Origin: Rhizobiaceae bacterium
GTDB taxonomy: Bacteria > Pseudomonadota > Alphaproteobacteria > Rhizobiales > Rhizobiaceae
Assembly (NCBI GenBank): GCA_029212415.1
Contig: JARGOF010000050.1
Location: 1,871 to 41,948, forward strand
Direction: 5' to 3'
Length of the DNA: 40,078 nt
Both the position numbers and the translations under genes were made by a program. Positions 9,391 to 29,815 of the stretch are shown here, piece after piece. Numbering within the stretch: the first letter of the stretch is position 1; every line of letters begins with the position of its first letter. The notes under the pieces were generated by a model. The model was not told where the DNA came from. It ran no database searches and worked only from the letters and a program-made list of their open reading frames with translations.

Positions 9391-9423
9391 TTGCGAGTGC
9401 CGGGCGAACAGGGAGAGAGGGCT

Positions 9424-10197
9424 ATGCGGGTTGCATTGACGGGAGGGGCAAGTGGTATCGGCGCTGCCGTGGCGGCAAATCTGAAGCGGCTGGGTGCGGA
9501 TATTGTTGCCTTCGACATCGTCGAACCAAGGGTCAATATCGATCAATGGGTCAAGGTCGATCTGTCTGACCCGACGTCAATTCTCGAAGCGGAACAACAG
9601 GTTTCCGGCTCCTTCGACGCGCTGATCAACAATGCCGGCCTGCCGCCACGCAAGGGGCTTGAAGAAAAGGTCCTGGCGGTCAATTACTTCGGACTGGTCA
9701 ACTTTACCAATCTCATGATTCCCAAACTCACGCAGGGCGGGGCAATCGTCAATACGGCGTCGAAAGCGGGTGCCCGATGGCGCGAAAACATCCCGCAAAT
9801 CAGGGCTTTGAGAGACCTGACTGACGTGGATGGCCTGCCGGCCTTCATAGAAACTCAGGCCATCAGCCCGGTGCGGGCCTATGATCTTTCCAAGGAAGCG
9901 GTGATCCTGTGGACCATCACCCAGACCGAACGTCTTGCAGCGCTTGGGTTGCGCGTAAATACGGTGAGTCCGGCTGCTGTTTCGACAGATATTCTGGATG
10001 ATTTTGTGACAGCTTTTGGCGAAAGGGCGACAAAGGCAATGGCCCGCATTGGCAGGCCTGGTACGCCGGAGGAGGTCGCGGAAGTGATCTGTTTTCTTGC
10101 CAGTCCTCAAAGCAATTGGCTCAAGGGAATAGACATTCCCATAGACGGCGGATTGGCGGCCATGAGCCTGTCGGATGGTCTGGAGATGTCGATCTGA
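9424..10197 (+). CDS. SDR-family oxidoreductase
   Basis: A 257-residue classical short-chain dehydrogenase/reductase. Seen: the cofactor motif TGGASGIG (6-13), NNAG (69-72), a Ser at 113 in NTASKAGARW, and the catalytic YxxxK at Y153/K157 (YDLSKEA). The acidic residue D31 after strand 2 (VAFDIVEP) suggests NAD rather than NADP. The AGARW stretch and the insertion after it resemble coniferyl-alcohol dehydrogenase/3-alpha-hydroxysteroid dehydrogenase members, but the substrate is not determined. The start is the ATG at 9424, preceded by AGGGAGAGAGGG; an upstream TTG at 9391 directly abutting recJ is less likely. It converges with the IclR gene 24 bases downstream. A role in haloaromatic metabolism with the nearby dehalogenase is only suggested by proximity. 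Confidence 0.85.
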   Translation: MRVALTGGASGIGAAVAANLKRLGADIVAFDIVEPRVNIDQWVKVDLSDPTSILEAEQQVSGSFDALINNAGLPPRKGLEEKVLAVNYFGLVNFTNLMIPKLTQGGAIVNTASKAGARWRENIPQIRALRDLTDVDGLPAFIETQAISPVRAYDLSKEAVILWTITQTERLAALGLRVNTVSPAAVSTDILDDFVTAFGERATKAMARIGRPGTPEEVAEVICFLASPQSNWLKGIDIPIDGGLAAMSLSDGLEMSI

Positions 10198-10221: not shown

Positions 10222-11016
10222 CTATGTGTAACGTTGCAGCTCGGCGTCAATACGGGAGGCCGCCTCGCGCAGAGATGAGAGAAACTCCGCAGCAAATTCC
10301 TCATGTTTTTTGAAAACCCTTGGCCAAAGCACCGTCATGCCGCCGAAGGGTTTGCCAGCCTTGTGCAGCGGGACTGCGATTGCCGCCAATCCGTCATCGA
10401 GGACGGTTTCGCCCAGGTATTGCGCGTATCGCACGCCGTAACCGCGCTTGCGGGTTGCTTCAATCTCCTGCAGATATTTGTCGAAGCTGAGATTGAATCG
10501 TGCAAGTCCCCAGATTTCATCACCCTCGCTTTGTCGGTGAAACTGATAAATTTCTTCATCCTGCATGGCGGACAGGCAAACCATTCCGGTTGCTGATCCA
10601 AAGAGGTTGATCCGGCGATTGACGACGCCACGGTAGAGATGAAACGGGCTCAGGGGTCTGGTCGACTCGACAATGCGCATCATGACATTGTCAACGATAT
10701 GAATATCTGATGGCCAGGATATCTTTCGGGTCAATTCCACCGCATGGGGCATGGCCACATCGATCAGCAATGCAAGGTTGGCCGGTATTGGTTCGCCGCT
10801 GCCCGCTGCGAGCGTGATATTGATGCGGTAGAGTTGATCGGCCAGCGACCGACGCACCAGGCGGCGGCGGATCAAAGTTGCAAGCAGCCGACGGATGGTC
10901 GATTTTGGCAATGCACATTCACGATGCAGATCGGCCAGAGAACTGGCTCCATTGCGCGCCAGCGTTTCCATGATGGTAATGCCGCGGTCGAGTGAACGGT
11001 TTTCAAGTTTTTTCAT
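10222..11016 (-). CDS. IclR-family transcriptional regulator
   Basis: A 264-residue regulator with an N-terminal winged helix (about 8-65: RGITIMETLARNGASSLADL, then PKSTIRRLLATLIRRRLVRR as recognition region) and a C-terminal IclR effector-binding domain (GSATGMVCLSAM, RKRGYGVRYAQYLGETVLDDGLAAIAVPL, ending SLREAASRIDAEL). IclR proteins often respond to aromatic or small-acid ligands and control a divergent catabolic operon. That is the arrangement here: it is transcribed away from the fused dehalogenase gene with 360 bases between. The start is the ATG at 11016; the frame extends to 11055 but the family N terminus fits the inner ATG. The ligand is unknown; control of the dehalogenase is inference from layout. 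Confidence 0.88.
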   Translation of the reverse strand: MKKLENRSLDRGITIMETLARNGASSLADLHRECALPKSTIRRLLATLIRRRLVRRSLADQLYRINITLAAGSGEPIPANLALLIDVAMPHAVELTRKISWPSDIHIVDNVMMRIVESTRPLSPFHLYRGVVNRRINLFGSATGMVCLSAMQDEEIYQFHRQSEGDEIWGLARFNLSFDKYLQEIEATRKRGYGVRYAQYLGETVLDDGLAAIAVPLHKAGKPFGGMTVLWPRVFKKHEEFAAEFLSSLREAASRIDAELQRYT

Positions 11017-11161
11017 GTATTGCCTGCAGACGATCCGATGGAGACGTGCCACCAAGCGGCACGGGCGAAAATGACCAGTTGCCAGTTTTAGGGAATTGGA
11101 TCAAGTATTTCATAGATGTGTGGGAGGCATAGGTGACGGACAAGGTGATGGTGGCACCTTC

Positions 11162-11206
11162 AGCGGTCTGGCAATTAGCGGTCTGGCAACAAGTGGTCTG
11201 GCGCAT
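11162..11206 (+). repeat. Three tandem 15-bp repeats, candidate operator
   Basis: Three consecutive 15-bp units read AGCGGTCTGGCAATT, AGCGGTCTGGCAACA and AGTGGTCTGGCGCAT. They sit in the divergent IclR/dehalogenase gap, about 145 bases upstream of the IclR start and 170 upstream of the dehalogenase start. A related inverted sequence, GCCAGATCAGACC, occurs at about 11308. A regulator-binding array is plausible; replication slippage is the alternative. Confidence 0.55.
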
Positions 11207-11376
11207 CGTCCGGATGCGGCGACGGGGGCATTCATTACAGGCGGAACCGTGATGAATTGACGCGACCAATCCGGTTTGGAATGCAAAGTTGCAAAGGCGT
11301 ATCCTTTGCCAGATCAGACCCGCGGTCGGTAATATCTTTGATACACTTTAAATGAACCTGAAACAGGGAAATAGGC

Positions 11377-14300
11377 ATGCGTTTTTTTTCAGATAAGAAT
11401 CGACCCGTGGATAGGGGGCCTTACCCTCTCGAATTGCTGTCGCGTGCCGCGAACCTGCCGGATCTGTCTTCTGTCCCCCTGTTCAAACAACTCTCCTTCA
11501 ACCGGCCTGATCAGCCGCAAAGCATCGTCAATGCCGCCAGCCAGCACCAGGCCATGCTGGATGCCATTCGCGACGGTCTGGTCAATAGAGCCAGATCCGA
11601 ATGTCCTGCTGACCCGGGTGAACGGGCCAGGCATCTCAAGGCGTTCGGGTATTTCAGTGATGCATCCATGGTTGGCATTTGTGCGTTGCCGGATGATGCC
11701 CTGCTGAAAGAGCCCTTTCGCAATCCGGACATAGACCGGCTGGCAGAGGATTTGCGCACCAAGCAAACCAAGACCCTGGCATCGGGTATCGACATGATCA
11801 TGGCTGATCTGAAGGAATCGATGCAGGCGCCGCCATCAACAATTGATGGCCACACCCATGCAATTGTCTATCTCTATGAATATCCGAGGGATCCGAAACC
11901 CGATGAGCCGGGCAGCGACTGGATCATGGATGCACAGGCCCACCGTGCATGCCTGCGGGCCTCGGAAACCGCCGTTGTCATTGCCAATTACATCCGGCTG
12001 CTGGGGTTTGATGCAAGAGCGCATACGGGATCGACCAGCGATGTTGATCTCAACCGCCTATGTGTTGCAGCCGGTCTTGCGACGCTGGAAGAGGGCGCTC
12101 TGGTCAATCCCTATGTCGGCGACCGGTTCGGGGTTGCCATTGTCACCACGACCTTTGCTGTCGCTGCTGACGCGCCATTGGTGCCGCTTGCCGAGCAACC
12201 CAGGTCAAAGACCCATGGTGTCGCCTGGAAACTCGGCAAGGGTTTTGCCAAGAATGCATTCAACCGGGAGCCTTTTGCAAAACGCCGCTATGTCGACGGC
12301 GCCCATCCTTTTGAAAAACTCAAGCGTGTCGATGATCCGACGACCTTCATTGACGAGCAACGCGTGGCACGGGTGCCAAAGCGGGCGGATATGTTCGCCC
12401 GGGCGCAATTCGGCGATATGGGCAAGGCCAACCAGAAAGGCGCGACCAACGGCCACTATGCACGCAAGGCCGCACCGGCCATGGCGCAGCGCCGGGCGCT
12501 GGGTGCTTTTGTCCTGTTGCAGGATGGCGCCGTCACCCAGGAGGCTCTGAAACCCGATCCGCAGGTTGTCGCACAGAATATCAAAGCTGCTTCCTATTTC
12601 CTGGGCGTCGATGCTGTTGGCATTTCACGTTGCCCTGATTGGACGTGGTATTCCCATGATGCCGTGGGCGAGCCCATTGTTCCGACACAGGATCAGGCAA
12701 TCTCCATGATCATTGATCAGGGATACGAGACCATGGAAGGGGCTTCCGGCGATGACTGGATATCGGTCTCCCAATCGATGCGGGCCTATCTGCGCTTTTC
12801 CCTGCTGGGCGGTGTGATTGCAAAGCAGATCCGCAGCCTTGGCTATTCCGCCAAGGCCCATTCGGTGATGGATGGTGAAGTCCTGCAACCACCCTTGCTG
12901 CTGCTTTCCGGGCTGGGTGAGGTGTCGCGCATTGGCGAAGTCATCCTCAATCCCTATCTGGGACCGCGGCTGAAATCCGGTGTGGTGACGACCGACTTGC
13001 CGATGGCCCATGACAAACCGATTGATTTCGGCCTGCAGAAATTCTGTGAGAGTTGCAACAAGTGCGCACGCGAATGTCCCTCTGGCGCCATTACAGCCGG
13101 TCCGAAACTGATGTTCAATGGCTATGAAATCTGGAAATCGGACAGCCAGAAATGTGCGACCTATCGGATAACAACACCGGGTGGGGCAATGTGTGGCCGC
13201 TGCATGAAAACCTGCCCCTGGAACCTCGAAGGTCTGTTTGCGGAAAAACCTTTCCGCTGGGCCGCCATGAATATTCCGCAGGCAGCGCCTTTGCTGGCGA
13301 AGCTGGATGATGCCGTCGACAATGGTGGCCTGAACCCGGTGAAAAAATGGTGGTGGGACCTGGAGATCGAGGAGGATGGCGGCTATCGGCCATCCAGGCA
13401 CCCGGTCAATGCACGCGATCTGCAGAAGGATCTCGATCTCAAATACGAAGACCAGACCCTGGCGGTCTATCCGGCAAACCTGGCGCCGCATCCATGGCCC
13501 TTTCCGTTTCCCATGGACCGGGAGAAGGGCATTGAAGCCTATCAGGCGCTCATCACGGCCAAAGAGTACAAGGCGCGCTTGGCGCGCGGTGAAACGGACG
13601 GCCTGGCCCATGAATACAGGATCGAGGGCGATGCACCGGTTGTACGGGTGCAAATCTCCGCACTTGAGCAAATGACGCCAGACGTGACCAAATACGAGTT
13701 CTCGACACTGGATGGCTCGCCCCTGCCAGCCTGGGACGCCGGAGCGCATCTCGATATCGTTGTTGCCCCGGAATTCCTGCGGCAATATTCGATGTCGGGT
13801 GATCCGGCCGATCGGAGCAAATACCAGATCGGTGTGTTGCGGGAGGATCAGGGCAAAGGCGGCTCAAAGCTGATGCACCGAATCTTTGCCAAGGACCGCA
13901 AGATTTTCATATCCAAACCGATCAATCATTTCCCCTTGGTCGAAGAGGCCAAGAAGACCATGTTGATGGGCGGGGGAATCGGCATCACGCCGATGATCGC
14001 CATGGCGCACCGATTGCATGCCATCGGGGCCGATTTTGAAATGCATTATTCCTGTGCGTCGCGAAAGACTGCAGGTTATCTGGATGATCTTGCACGGTTT
14101 GACTGGAAGGACCGGGTGCATCTGCATTTCAGCGATGACGGCACACGCGCCGATCTTGATTCTGTTCTGCAGGGATACCAGGAGGGCTATCACGTCTACA
14201 CCTGTGGCCCGGAGCGCTACATGCAGGGTGTCGTCGATGCGGCCATCCGTCAGAATTACCCGGAAGAAGCCCGTCATCTGGAATATTTCTCGGTTCCGGA

Positions 14301-14586
14301 GATGCCTGAATATGTCAATCATGACTTTACGTTGAAGCTCAGCCGTTCGGGTAAGCAGTTTAACATTCCGGCTGACAAATCCGCGACCGACGTGCTGGCT
14401 GAAAATGGAATCCATATTGATGTAAAATGTTCGGACGGCATTTGCGGTGTGTGCAAATGCGGGCTCGTTTCCGGCGATGTGGACCATCGTGACTTTGTTC
14501 TGTCAAAAAAGCAGCGGGAAACGGCAATCATTCTTTGCCAGTCAAGAGCCAGCGAAGACCAGGGCATTGTCGAAGTGGATTTGTAG
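11377..14586 (+). CDS. Self-sufficient catabolic reductive dehalogenase (RdhA-reductase fusion)
   Basis: A 1069-residue soluble enzyme of the BhbA/NpRdhA type, which removes halogens from haloaromatics reductively using cobalamin. Residues 1-380 form an N-terminal vestigial cobalamin-fold repeat, 380-550 the active cobalamin domain, then two 4Fe-4S motifs: CESCNKCARECP (557-568) and C593 with CGRCMKTCP (606-614). Residues about 745-960 are a flavin/NAD(P)H reductase (RQYSMSG 802-808, MGGGIGITPM 864-873, TCGPERYM 943-950), and 985-1069 a plant-type 2Fe-2S ferredoxin (C1018, C1023, C1026, C1054). NpRdhA active-site residues as I recall them (Y426, K488, R552) fall at Y471, K533 and R597 here with a constant offset of 45. 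No Tat signal and no RdhB anchor are present, so it is cytosolic and catabolic, not respiratory. The substrate is unknown. Confidence 0.9.
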   Translation: MRFFSDKNRPVDRGPYPLELLSRAANLPDLSSVPLFKQLSFNRPDQPQSIVNAASQHQAMLDAIRDGLVNRARSECPADPGERARHLKAFGYFSDASMVGICALPDDALLKEPFRNPDIDRLAEDLRTKQTKTLASGIDMIMADLKESMQAPPSTIDGHTHAIVYLYEYPRDPKPDEPGSDWIMDAQAHRACLRASETAVVIANYIRLLGFDARAHTGSTSDVDLNRLCVAAGLATLEEGALVNPYVGDRFGVAIVTTTFAVAADAPLVPLAEQPRSKTHGVAWKLGKGFAKNAFNREPFAKRRYVDGAHPFEKLKRVDDPTTFIDEQRVARVPKRADMFARAQFGDMGKANQKGATNGHYARKAAPAMAQRRALGAFVLLQDGAVTQEALKPDPQVVAQNIKAASYFLGVDAVGISRCPDWTWYSHDAVGEPIVPTQDQAISMIIDQGYETMEGASGDDWISVSQSMRAYLRFSLLGGVIAKQIRSLGYSAKAHSVMDGEVLQPPLLLLSGLGEVSRIGEVILNPYLGPRLKSGVVTTDLPMAHDKPIDFGLQKFCESCNKCARECPSGAITAGPKLMFNGYEIWKSDSQKCATYRITTPGGAMCGRCMKTCPWNLEGLFAEKPFRWAAMNIPQAAPLLAKLDDAVDNGGLNPVKKWWWDLEIEEDGGYRPSRHPVNARDLQKDLDLKYEDQTLAVYPANLAPHPWPFPFPMDREKGIEAYQALITAKEYKARLARGETDGLAHEYRIEGDAPVVRVQISALEQMTPDVTKYEFSTLDGSPLPAWDAGAHLDIVVAPEFLRQYSMSGDPADRSKYQIGVLREDQGKGGSKLMHRIFAKDRKIFISKPINHFPLVEEAKKTMLMGGGIGITPMIAMAHRLHAIGADFEMHYSCASRKTAGYLDDLARFDWKDRVHLHFSDDGTRADLDSVLQGYQEGYHVYTCGPERYMQGVVDAAIRQNYPEEARHLEYFSVPEMPEYVNHDFTLKLSRSGKQFNIPADKSATDVLAENGIHIDVKCSDGICGVCKCGLVSGDVDHRDFVLSKKQRETAIILCQSRASEDQGIVEVDL

Positions 14587-14691
14587 GGAGGCTTTCCTGA
14601 TACCGGCGCATGTTTTGAGGTTCTTTGGCGCGGTAAACGTCAATGGATTTCAGGGCGTGCCGCCGGTGCCAGCTTGCTACGTGCCACAACA

Positions 14692-14722
14692 GAGCATGCG
14701 CAGTCGATAGACTGCGGTGCTC
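14692..14722 (+). terminator. Hairpin downstream of the dehalogenase gene
   Basis: An almost continuous hairpin: outer arms GAGCA/TGCTC (14692-14696, 14718-14722) and inner seven-pair arms CGCAGTC/GACTGCG (14699-14705, 14710-14716) with a GATA loop. It lies 106 bases after the dehalogenase stop and 30 before the opposing tRNA-Glu. There is no clean T-run, only an AT-rich tract, so it is a likely but unproven transcript end. Confidence 0.5.
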
Positions 14723-14751
14723 ATGTATTTGCGAATATTTTCAGAAGGATG

Positions 14752-14826
14752 TGGTACGCCCTAGGGGAATCGAACCCCTCTTTCCAGAATGAAAATCTGG
14801 CGTCCTAACCGATAGACGAAGGGCGC
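14752..14826 (-). tRNA. tRNA-Glu (TTC)
   Basis: Read on the minus strand, a cloverleaf is visible: a seven-base acceptor stem GCGCCCT/AGGGCGT (first pair G-U, usual for this tRNA), anticodon stem CCAGA/TCTGG with loop TTTTCAT giving anticodon TTC, and T arm GAGGGGTTCGATTCCCCT. CCA is encoded. It decodes GAA/GAG. It stands alone between the dehalogenase and the M15-type lipoprotein gene. Confidence 0.95.
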
Positions 14827-14929
14827 GTAGTGACGGTTATATAGTCAGGTCCTGAGATTCCCGCAAGCGCGAATTTGGCTTTTTTGAAAAAAAGGTGACT
14901 ATGAATTTTGGACAGGAAAAACGAGAGGT

Positions 14930-26121: not shown

Positions 26122-27696
26122 ATGACCGACAAAATCTGGGATATTCGAAAGCTTGAGGAAGGCTTGCTGGTCAACCGGGGAGAACTTTTCCGACTGGGTA
26201 CAGCGGTTCTTTTCATTGCGCTGATCATGCTTTTCGCGTTGGCGCGTGCGCCAGGCGGGCCCCATGGCACGTTGCTGGTGATGGCTGCGATGATTGGCGG
26301 CTATATGGCACTCAACATCGGCGCGAACGATGTTGCGAACAACGTCGGGCCGGCTGTCGGATCGCGGGCGATCACTTTGGTCGGAGCGATCATCATTGCC
26401 GCGATTTGCGAAGCCGCGGGAGCGCTGATCGCCGGTGGTGATGTGGTCGGCACGATCAAGAACGGCATCATCAACCCCGCCATGATCGGTGACACCGACA
26501 CCTTCATCTGGCTGATGATTGCGGCACTGCTGGCTGCTGCCCTGTGGCTGAATTTCGCGACTGCCGTCGGTGCGCCGGTGTCGACAACCCATTCCATCGT
26601 CGGCGGCGTTCTGGGCGCAGGCATTGCGGCGGCAGGCTGGGGCATTGCCGACTGGGGCGTGGTGGCCCGAATCGCCGCGTCATGGGTCATCTCGCCGATC
26701 CTTGGCGGTATCATCGCGGCGGCATTTCTGTACCTCATCAAGCGCACGATCACCTATCAGCCGGATCTGATGGCTGCAGCGCGACGAATGGCACCGCTGT
26801 TGATCGCGGTGATGGCATGGGCGTTCGCGACCTACCTGATGCTGAAAGGCTTGAAGAAGATCTTTCCCGTCGGGTTCATGACCGCAAGTCTGGTCGGCAT
26901 TGTCATTGCAGCCGTGGTCTGGGCGCTGATGCGCCGGCATGTGGCGCGCGTCGCGCCGGGTTTGCCCAACGACAAGAATGGGGTCAATGCGCTCTTCACG
27001 GTGCCGTTGATATTCGCGGCAGCGCTTTTGAGCTTTGCCCATGGCGCCAATGACGTGGCAAATGCGGTCGGACCGCTTGCAGGTATCAGCGAAGCGATCA
27101 TGCATGGCGACATAGCGGGCAAGGCGCCAATCCCGTTCTGGGTGATGCTGGTGGGCGCCGCCGGCATCGTGCTGGGCCTGGCGCTGTTTGGGCCGAAGTT
27201 GATCCGGACGGTGGGTTCCGAGATCACTGAACTGGATAAGGCACGTGCCTTCTGCGTGGCGCTGGCCGCCGCGATCACCGTGATCATTGCCTCTCAGTTG
27301 GGGCTTCCGGTCAGCTCGACACACATTGCGGTGGGCGGGGTCTTCGGGGTCGGCTTCCTGCGCGAATACCTGAAGGTCAGCTACTCGCGGATGATTGAGG
27401 AGATCCGGGAGCATCATCAGGGAGAGGATGGCGAATCTGTTGACGTCTTTCTTGCTCGGTTTGATGCGGCGAGTGTGCAGGAGAAGGGCGAAATGCTGCG
27501 GCGGCTGAAATCCGGCGGAACAGCAGGCGCGCTGCACAAGGCCGAGCGCAAGGGCCTGCGGAAAATTCAGCGGGTTGAACTGGTCAAGCGCACGCTGCTG
27601 CTGCGCATCGCCGCTGCCTGGGTGATTACCGTTCCGGCAACGGCGCTTCTTTCCGCGATGATCTTCTTCATGATTCGGGGAGCGCTGCTGCCATGA
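26122..27696 (+). CDS. PiT-family inorganic phosphate transporter
   Basis: A 524-residue PHO4/PiT (SLC20-like) carrier that imports phosphate, probably as a metal-phosphate or with a cation. The family's duplicated signature is present in both halves: GANDVANNVGPAVGS near 66-80 and GANDVANAVGPLAG near 311-324, with matching PVSTTHSIVGGVLG and PVSSTHIAVGGVFG motifs. About ten membrane segments; a polar region of about 75 residues (GEDGESVDVFLARFDAAS) lies before the last membrane helix. GGGGAGGCGGG is a strong ribosome site. The stop overlaps the start of the downstream uspA gene (ATGA), indicating translational coupling. Confidence 0.94.
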   Translation: MTDKIWDIRKLEEGLLVNRGELFRLGTAVLFIALIMLFALARAPGGPHGTLLVMAAMIGGYMALNIGANDVANNVGPAVGSRAITLVGAIIIAAICEAAGALIAGGDVVGTIKNGIINPAMIGDTDTFIWLMIAALLAAALWLNFATAVGAPVSTTHSIVGGVLGAGIAAAGWGIADWGVVARIAASWVISPILGGIIAAAFLYLIKRTITYQPDLMAAARRMAPLLIAVMAWAFATYLMLKGLKKIFPVGFMTASLVGIVIAAVVWALMRRHVARVAPGLPNDKNGVNALFTVPLIFAAALLSFAHGANDVANAVGPLAGISEAIMHGDIAGKAPIPFWVMLVGAAGIVLGLALFGPKLIRTVGSEITELDKARAFCVALAAAITVIIASQLGLPVSSTHIAVGGVFGVGFLREYLKVSYSRMIEEIREHHQGEDGESVDVFLARFDAASVQEKGEMLRRLKSGGTAGALHKAERKGLRKIQRVELVKRTLLLRIAAAWVITVPATALLSAMIFFMIRGALLP

Positions 27697-28166
27697 AAGA
27701 CAAAACAGGCACGATCCTGTGCGCCGTTGATTTCTCGGCGGATTCCGAAGCTGCCCTTTTGTGGGCATGCGGCCAGGCGGCGCGCGATGGTGCTCGACTG
27801 GTCGTGCTGAACGTCGTGCACGATCCTGCGTCCAGCCCCGGCTTCTACCGTAAACCCGATGGCGACTGGCTGCGGCCCCTGGAGGATGTCGCCAGGGAAA
27901 TGTTCACGGATTTCATCGCCGGGTTCAAAGGAAAATACCCGGAAGCAGGCATTCTTGAGCGGATGGAGACGGTGCAGGTCAGCGGCCTGCCGCCAGGCCG
28001 GATTGTAGAAGTTGCTGGCGAGATCGGAGCGGATCTGATTGTCATCGGAAGCCGTGGACGGACCGGACTGCCACACGTCATGCTCGGATCCGTTGCCGAG
28101 CGCGTGGTTCAAATGGCCCGGCCGCCTGTTACGGTCGTGAAAGCCCCGCCCGAGATGGAGGAATGA
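27693..28166 (+). CDS. Universal stress protein in phosphate operon
   Basis: A 157-residue Usp with a canonical ATP-binding pattern, GSRGRTGLPHVMLGSVAERV (G-x2-G-x9-G-S), and N-terminal ILCAVDFSADSEAALLWA. It has an insertion-rich middle part (FYRKPDGDWLRPLEDVARE). It starts at the ATGA overlap with the PiT gene and ends in another ATGA overlap with the Na/Pi carrier gene, so all three are one translation unit. An ATP-sensing regulator of phosphate uptake is a reasonable inference, by analogy with Usp proteins coupled to other carriers. Confidence 0.92.
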   Translation: MKDKTGTILCAVDFSADSEAALLWACGQAARDGARLVVLNVVHDPASSPGFYRKPDGDWLRPLEDVAREMFTDFIAGFKGKYPEAGILERMETVQVSGLPPGRIVEVAGEIGADLIVIGSRGRTGLPHVMLGSVAERVVQMARPPVTVVKAPPEMEE

Positions 28167-29815
28167 CAGAAGAACTCGACAAATTCGCACTGATCACGGG
28201 GCTGTTCGGTGGGCTGGCACTGTTTCTGTTCGGCATGGACCTGATGACTGCGGCTTTGAAGCGGGTGGCGGGCGAGCAGCTCAGGGACGTGCTTGGCAAA
28301 GTCACAACCAACCGGTTTCTGGGCGCGGGGATAGGCGCGCTGTTCACGGGACTGGTGAACTCATCCTCTGTGACGACGGTGATTCTGGTCGGATTCATTT
28401 CGGCGGGGCTGATGTCGATGGCACAGAGCGTCAGCGTTATCATGGGCGCCAATATCGGCAGCACGGTTACCGCACAGATCCTCGCCTTCAACGTGACACG
28501 TTTCGCGCTGCCGATGATCACGCTGGGGTTCGCGGTCGCGTTTTTGTTCAAGAATCGGGATTGGCAGGACTACGGGCGCATGCTCTTTGGCATCGGGCTT
28601 GTGTTTTATGGCATGGGGCTCATGAGTCAGGCCATGGTGCCGCTGAGGACCAGCCCGGTGTTCATCGACTTCATCGCGACGCTTGAGATGCCCATGCTGG
28701 CGGTGCTGGCAGGCATGGTGTTTACGGCGATCATCCAGTCCTCGGCGGCGACGACAGGCATCGTGATCGTGCTGGCGGGCCAAGGTGTGATGACGCTGGA
28801 GACGGCGATCGCGGTGGCGATGGGCGCCAATATTGGTACATGCGCCACGGCGGGACTGGCGGCAATCGGCAAACCGCGGGAGGCGGTGCGGGCGGCAGTG
28901 GTGCATGTGCTGTTCAATGTGGCAGGCGTGATCGTGTGGATCATGTTCATCGATCAGCTTTCGGCATTCGCACGAATGATTTCGCCGCAGTTTGACGTGC
29001 CGCGGCAGGTGGCGAATGCGCATACGGTGTTCAACGTAGCGAACACGTTTCTGTTCATCGGGTTCACGACTCAGATCGCCCGATTGGTGGAGTGGCTGGT
29101 GCCGGACAAACCGCTGTCGCAGGAGGCGCCGCTGACGCCGAAATACCTGGACGAAGGGCTTTTATCCACTCCCGGATTCGCCTTGGAGAACGCGCGGCGC
29201 GAGATCGGGCGGATGGGCGACTATGTGGACGATCTGCTTGTAAAGGCCCTGCCGACGGCCTTGTCTGCGTCGCGTCGGGCGCTTGTGGAACTTGAAGAGA
29301 TGGACCCGCCGGTGGACCGACTTCATAGAGCCATCATCGAATATCTGGGACGTATCTCGCTGTTGCGGCTTTCGGATAAGCAGTCGCGGGATCTGTTGCA
29401 GCTCGTCAGCGTCGCCAACGATCTGGAGCATGTCGCCGATCGCATCACGACGGATATCACCATTTCGGCGCGCAAACGGCTGGACGAGCACGCTCCGATC
29501 ACGCCCGAGGCAGCGCGGCGGATCAGCGCCTATCACGCAGAGGTCGCGCTGGCGCTGGAACAGGCGGTGGAGGCCGTTGTCAAGGAGAACATGGAGCTGG
29601 CAGTCTCGGTACGAAACAAGAAGCGCGAAGTCGTGGGCATGTCGCGGAACATGAGCAGGGAATGGTTTGGACAGACAAAGGGCCATCAAAAGAGCGCGCT
29701 GATGGGCTATGTACGCGAGGTGGAATTGGTCGAAATCCTCGACGGCATTTTCAAGATAGCAAGGCGTATTGCACGCAGCCAGCTGGAACCGGAAGAGACG
29801 CCAGCGGACGCCTAG
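28163..29815 (+). CDS. NptA/YjbB-type Na+/phosphate cotransporter with PhoU-like tail
   Basis: A 550-residue protein. The N-terminal membrane half carries the two SLC34/NptA repeats: GLVNSSSVTTVILVGF with MGANIGSTVTAQ, and AIIQSSAATTGIVIV with MGANIGTCATAG; the QSS/NSS-type motifs bind Na+ and phosphate in the family. From about residue 350 a soluble helical PhoU-like domain follows (NDLEHVADRITTDI, then ENMELAVSVRNKKREVVG). Family members can import or export phosphate depending on gradients. It overlaps the uspA gene by four bases. A strong hairpin 38 bases past the stop ends the operon. Third-position GC is high across the three genes. Confidence 0.93.
   Translation: MTEELDKFALITGLFGGLALFLFGMDLMTAALKRVAGEQLRDVLGKVTTNRFLGAGIGALFTGLVNSSSVTTVILVGFISAGLMSMAQSVSVIMGANIGSTVTAQILAFNVTRFALPMITLGFAVAFLFKNRDWQDYGRMLFGIGLVFYGMGLMSQAMVPLRTSPVFIDFIATLEMPMLAVLAGMVFTAIIQSSAATTGIVIVLAGQGVMTLETAIAVAMGANIGTCATAGLAAIGKPREAVRAAVVHVLFNVAGVIVWIMFIDQLSAFARMISPQFDVPRQVANAHTVFNVANTFLFIGFTTQIARLVEWLVPDKPLSQEAPLTPKYLDEGLLSTPGFALENARREIGRMGDYVDDLLVKALPTALSASRRALVELEEMDPPVDRLHRAIIEYLGRISLLRLSDKQSRDLLQLVSVANDLEHVADRITTDITISARKRLDEHAPITPEAARRISAYHAEVALALEQAVEAVVKENMELAVSVRNKKREVVGMSRNMSREWFGQTKGHQKSALMGYVREVELVEILDGIFKIARRIARSQLEPEETPADA

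Follow-up and report, generated by a model that had tools for sequence, protein, structure and literature searches.

The window, that is the whole 40,078-nucleotide stretch of DNA that was analysed, encodes an RDH-PDOR fusion protein that, judged from its sequence, is very probably a catabolic reductive dehalogenase (RDH) of the BhbA/JtRdhA type with the same kind of reaction. On balance, the neighbours of the gene in relatives favour natural substrates of the 4-hydroxybenzoate type, namely bromo- and iodo-4-hydroxybenzoates or close kin. By analogy with JtRdhA, loss of bromide or iodide is likely, and loss of chloride is doubtful. The BhbA-type kind of RDH is already known and common, and it is frequent in marine Alphaproteobacteria. 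The coordinates of all features are collected in Table 1.

Table 1. Features of the predicted dehalogenase gene and its surroundings, with positions in the window
Feature	Position	Strand	Basis
RDH-PDOR fusion, probable self-sufficient catabolic reductive dehalogenase, 1069 aa	11377..14586	+	Domain, structure-homology and alignment matches
First, degenerate RDH cobalamin-binding fold, about aa 79-270	11611..12186	+	Self-alignment, RDH profile; C192 in place of catalytic Tyr
Second, catalytic fold copy, about aa 434-647	12676..13317	+	Y471, K533, R597, S467, M468 present
Two 4Fe-4S sites, C557/560/563/567 and C593/606/609/613	13045..13224	+	4Fe-4S dicluster domain 557-616, alignment
PDOR flavin (FMN by homology) and NAD(P)H part, about aa 755-963	13639..14265	+	Homology
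Plant-type 2Fe-2S ferredoxin domain, C1018/1023/1026/1054	14341..14550	+	Fer2 at 989-1058, alignment
SDR, 'coniferyl-alcohol dehydrogenase' subfamily	9391..10197	+	247.6 bits, cut-off 242
IclR-family regulator gene	10222..11055	-	Divergent from RDH gene; profile/domain match; arrangement shared with L023
IclR-RDH divergent intergenic region, 321 bp	11056..11376	.	15-bp tandem repeat inside

The reading frame is intact, with an ATG start, 1069 codons and no internal stop, and its product matches the 'reductive dehalogenase' model TIGR02486 with 203.7 bits (cut-off 160.35). The best solved relatives are the NpRdhA chains (E 2.4e-161), which cover residues 1-107 and 158-737. A C-terminal PDOR (phthalate dioxygenase reductase-like) module with its 2Fe-2S domain was found by domain search, structure-homology search and alignment: residues 756-1062 resemble phthalate dioxygenase reductase 2pia (E 7.7e-59), and residues 758-1062 the reductase end of the self-sufficient P450 6kbh (E 2.6e-62), with 6laa also among the C-terminal matches. 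Because the E-values of the structure-homology matches are so small, a chance likeness is excluded. The initial annotation, which had proposed a complete self-sufficient dehalogenase on one chain with two 4Fe-4S motifs, a flavin reductase and a 2Fe-2S domain, is borne out by these results. An AlphaFold model made from 28 sequences reached a pTM of 0.53; with a mean pLDDT of 67.1 and values below 50 in much of residues 548-732, it is poor in the catalytic part and contributes little. In a Foldseek search with this model, NpRdhA came out on top (1.2e-47) and the C-terminal end led to 6kbh and 2pia; matches had rmsd values of about 17 and about 12 Å, and the geometry of the model was used for no conclusion. 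Seven phage records match the window protein, and all five listed among them cover the reductase module only.

The cobalamin-binding fold is duplicated, as had been annotated. Aligned to each other, the N-terminal piece and the second copy give E 3e-14, with 28% over 193 columns, and the RDH profile recognises the N-terminal half as well, at 39.1 bits (E 1.5e-9). In the self-alignment, a catalytic tyrosine is present in the second copy only, and the position of Y471 is C192 in the first. Y471, K533 and R597 correspond to Y426, K488 and R552 of NpRdhA at a single offset of 45, in agreement with the constant offset claimed before, and these three NpRdhA residues are named as key residues in the available text of two papers (PMC10463259, PMC7565698). 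An alignment with BhbA and NpRdhA, proposed as a check with the initial annotation, found the trio and the cluster cysteines conserved. Together with S467, M468 and F340, the trio is identical in 86 of 86 aligned relatives, as are the eight cysteines of the 4Fe-4S sites and the four of the 2Fe-2S site; BhbA and four other relatives on plasmids likewise keep the trio and all 12 cluster cysteines. The alignment consisted of the window protein, NpRdhA and the 86 relatives, with 16 of 102 loci omitted: L023 and L028 (same as L003 and L006), L001, L004, L016 and L017 (window or fragments), L002 (reductase only), L005, L007, L012 and L013 (short RDHs), and L014, L015, L018, L021 and L022 (without a match at E 1e-20).

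Twelve active-site positions were compared, of which six differ from both NpRdhA and BhbA, namely M339, A356, Y361, A362, V464 and V497. BhbA carries F339, S356, S361, V362, S465 and A498 instead, and the letters of the window protein are typical among its relatives, being found in 77, 81, 85, 41, 84 and 85 of the 86, respectively. Because these six positions differ, the substrate of the window enzyme may differ from those of NpRdhA and BhbA.

BhbA from plasmid pBHB of Comamonas sp. 7D-2 has an identical domain order throughout (1071 aa versus 1069 aa) and is 51.5% identical to the window protein end to end, over 1066 columns. Its plasmid carries IS elements, and ligA and extradiol dioxygenase genes lie upstream of bhbA. 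JtRdhA of Jhaorihella thermophila is, like the window protein, an RDH-PDOR fusion with the identical trio and, in the available text, no Tat signal (PMC10463259), a likeness that is taken from the published description and not from sequence identity. The same text reports NADPH-driven debromination and deiodination with 3,5-dibromo-4-hydroxybenzoate as the best substrate, conversion of bromo- and iodophenols, and conversion of none of the chlorinated compounds tested (PMC10463259). JtRdhA has been produced in E. coli carrying the BtuCEDFB uptake genes. NpRdhA of Nitratireductor pacificus (4ras, 6zxu, 6zy1) is 42.9% identical to the RDH part over 685 columns and, unlike the window protein, is without a PDOR module. 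In the Roseobacter clade, bhbA homologues are described as widespread, and a debrominase of Roseobacter sp. MED193, Ros_A3X954, acts on 2,6-dibromophenol (PMC13101508). MED193 encodes a fusion 72% identical to the window protein, which may be Ros_A3X954; MED193 also has a second RDH, in a 537-aa frame, and the available text states no length for the debrominase. A homologue with 97% identity is found in the metagenome-assembled genome bin_ji_oxhcr1.012 (L023), which has the same SDR-IclR-RDH order and the submitter title Rhizobiaceae, and this agrees with the Hyphomicrobiales origin assumed in the initial annotation.

In the window, gene order makes the divergently encoded IclR protein the likely regulator of the RDH gene. 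The SDR gene lies 1.2 kb from the RDH gene, and a link to RDH function is no more than suggestive. The 15-bp tandem repeat at 11162-11202, of which the intergenic region holds 2.7 copies and L023 one copy, comprises possible regulator sites; a promoter scan gave two promoter-like sites versus a shuffle mean of 2.3. Among the loci compared, the window IclR turned up at E 1e-12 or better in none but those of the window itself and G006/L023; for the window SDR, L066 was the one addition. Elsewhere in the window genome, pobA (647.7 bits, cut-off 538.7, on another contig), pcaH (356.3 bits, cut-off 296.4) and cobN (1734.4 bits, cut-off 822.05) are present. Both pobA and cobN exceed their cut-offs in 8 of 8 genomes of the genus, and pobA does so in 1 of 14 controls. 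At 26122-29815, genes for a PHO4-type phosphate transporter, a universal stress protein and a Na/Pi cotransporter stand in series.

The neighbours of the 80 close relatives were called with our own ORF caller and clustered by blastp with a minimum identity of 38%; they differ widely between loci. The whole conserved neighbourhood was rejected as a guide to function, with no neighbour cluster occurring in more than 10 of the 80 loci. A member of the PobA (4-hydroxybenzoate hydroxylase) cluster is present in eight loci, and seven of them (L033, L034, L036, L043, L053, L066 and L102) have it on the RDH strand, 5-49 bp from the RDH gene. Four of these seven genes were scanned and all lie above the PobA equivalog cut-off, and those of L034, L036 and L053 were named by clustering. 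An adjoining PobA was not seen in 73 of the 80 loci; three loci, L034, L053 and L082, lack a readable gene on one side. In the sister clade of the window, four of five members have a PobA neighbour. The adjacency is therefore a signal in some lineages and no rule. On the plasmid of Nitratireductor OM-1, an aldehyde dehydrogenase gene precedes the RDH gene, and ring-cleavage genes and pobA follow 1.9-4.6 kb downstream on the opposite strand. Within 8-kb flanks, 8 of the 80 loci have DctP, 9 have DctM and 7 have MarR, each named from a single scanned member of its cluster. In the titles and abstract openings listed on RDH with pobA or 4-hydroxybenzoate, a scope that left most of the subscription literature outside, an RDH-pobA operon was not mentioned.

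Halogenated 4-hydroxybenzoates are suggested as the natural substrates because PobA adjoins the RDH gene in relatives. The prediction of halogenated phenolics in the initial annotation holds as far as homology and these neighbours go, and its extension to chloride loss is doubtful, JtRdhA being inactive on the chlorinated compounds tested in the available text (PMC10463259). Less probable, and to be put forward tentatively, is that the main substrates are bromo- and iodophenols free of a carboxylate and that the enzyme serves the removal of toxic halophenols and not 4-hydroxybenzoate catabolism. The six deviating active-site positions and the 73 loci without an adjoining PobA would fit such a role, and so would A356, which takes the position of K307, a residue of NpRdhA that forms a salt bridge to the substrate carboxylate in one bound form (PMC7565698). 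The activity of Ros_A3X954 on 2,6-dibromophenol (PMC13101508) points the same way, with the uncertainty about which MED193 RDH it is; however, JtRdhA reached only 6.8% of its best rate on this compound (PMC10463259), and PobA adjoins the RDH gene in most of the sister clade.

Relatives of the window protein are numerous. A scan at one genome per species gave at least 592 pattern matches, at least 586 of which encode relatives, and the best 80 of these at least 586 share 71-97% identity over all or nearly all of their length. Plasmid records yielded nine matches at E 1e-60, BhbA included, and eight of the nine span 80% of the length or more. According to the literature, as far as available, BhbA belongs to a mainly alphaproteobacterial cluster (PMC3939436), and RDH genes occur in 7.8% of Alphaproteobacteria (PMC6299228). 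Fusion frames of 1074-1131 aa, one or more per genome, occur in all eight genomes of the window genus: window-like fusions are found in G000, G006 and G007, a 62% identical one in G005, and a deeper set with 56-57% identity in G001-G005. Fusions were counted by frame length and alignment because TIGR02486 also matches controls (11 of 14, all below the cut-off) and, with matches in all eight genus genomes, exceeds the cut-off in only five. A ~470-aa gene is present in all five loci of the deeper clade (L117-L121), adjoining the RDH gene in four and three ORFs off in L118; its copy in L120 is a circularly permuted ATP-grasp, and MarR-like genes lie upstream of the RDH gene in L120 and L121. Short frames of 433-506 aa that belong to the RDH family, carry the two 4Fe-4S motifs and have no PDOR were seen in G004, G005 and G007 (L005, L007, L012 and L013). 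Further genus frames of 331-351 aa (L014, L015, L021 and L022) match the RDH profile with 86.9-111.3 bits, below the cut-off, and were not matched by the window protein in tblastn at E 1e-20.

In a FastTree phylogeny the families are mixed, with 12 changes for Roseobacteraceae and 14 for Paracoccaceae, which transfer would explain, as would paralogues and the titles of metagenome-assembled genomes. The tree was rooted on NpRdhA as the sole outgroup, so that a grouping with BhbA rather than NpRdhA is assumed by the rooting. The window and L023 are sister to L036, L032, L053, L033 and L034 (support 89, below 95).

That the protein shares the RDH fold and catalyses a non-dehalogenating reaction, like the epoxyqueuosine reductase QueG, is very unlikely. 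The QueG model TIGR00276 does match weakly, but its 24.3 bits are far below the cut-off of 200, and the Tyr, Lys, Arg, Ser, Met and Phe of the active site are kept with NpRdhA and BhbA and, as far as reported, with JtRdhA (PMC10463259). Moreover, the genus has separate frames of 383-411 aa, which are weak matches and possibly QueG.

A cytosolic enzyme driven by NAD(P)H, as had been proposed along with the lack of a Tat signal and an anchor gene, is supported by the sequence. No Tat motif was seen in the window protein, with RR pairs at 303 and 372 only, and no N-terminal hydrophobic stretch: within residues 1-60, the 19-residue hydropathy means peak at 0.67. The highest such mean of the whole protein (1.69, at 251-269) lies within the part aligning to soluble NpRdhA. 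In the two flanking gaps covered by the anchor scan (11056-11376 and 14587-14929) no anchor-like small frame was found, and all frames of at least 35 codons have means of 1.18 or less. Tat signal and anchor were judged by motif and hydropathy scans alone. The results agree with a catabolic enzyme of the cytosol, which is how the available text of PMC10463259 describes the family. The PDOR module upholds the electron source, for which the homologue evidence from JtRdhA is for NADPH (PMC10463259). A respiratory RDH for organohalide respiration is most improbable. The PceA chain 4uqu does match residues 465-661, in keeping with a shared superfamily, but Tat motif, N-terminal hydrophobic stretch and anchor-like frame in the flanking gaps are all unseen, and the PDOR fusion is like that of catabolic enzymes.

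For a catabolic dehalogenase of the BhbA/JtRdhA type, cofactors, electron path and mechanism can be proposed from the papers on NpRdhA and JtRdhA. Hydride from NAD(P)H would be passed to the FMN of the PDOR module, and single electrons would then reach base-off cobalamin by way of the 2Fe-2S cluster and the pair of 4Fe-4S clusters. Once reduced, the cobalt would engage the halogen ortho to the phenol, the hydroxyl of which may be gripped by S467, K533 and R597, and Y471 would donate a proton, upon which halide and dehalogenated phenol are released. The product 4-hydroxybenzoate could then be converted by PobA to protocatechuate for ring cleavage, and the IclR protein would regulate the RDH gene.

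Rather unlikely as a whole, a marine pathway devoted to algal bromophenols might be conceived, leading from a sulfatase via the SDR, further oxidation, the RDH and PobA to protocatechuate. The sulfatase would release sulfated bromobenzyl alcohols, the SDR would oxidise the benzyl alcohol, further oxidation would yield bromo-4-hydroxybenzoate, and the RDH would take off the bromines before PobA acts. Lanosol-4,7-disulfate is reported from a red alga (PMC9322897). Genes for a sulfatase-family protein, an SDR, the RDH and PobA are in one row in L066, a Nitratireductor metagenome-assembled genome, whereas the set is scattered in the window genome. In L066, the SDR gene directly precedes the RDH gene, and its product is 55% identical to the window SDR. 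The odds of the pathway are slightly lowered because both L066 proteins miss their NCBIfam cut-offs, the SDR with 229.3 versus 242 for coniferyl-alcohol dehydrogenase and the sulfatase-family protein with 298.8 versus 900 at best and 225.6 versus 481 for arylsulfatase. A sulfatase-family gene adjoins the RDH gene or lies within 2 kb of it in 4 of the 80 loci, and the sulfatase activity of these proteins is uncertain because their motif is C-G-S-S-R in L066 and C-G-A-S-R in the other three.

The window adds one more well-preserved member to a family of oxygen-tolerant dehalogenases that attracts interest in bioremediation. In relatives, the neighbouring PobA and sulfatase-family genes provide a handle on the marine role of BhbA-type enzymes, and the aspect worth following is whether bromo-4-hydroxybenzoates, perhaps derived from algal bromophenols, are the substrate.
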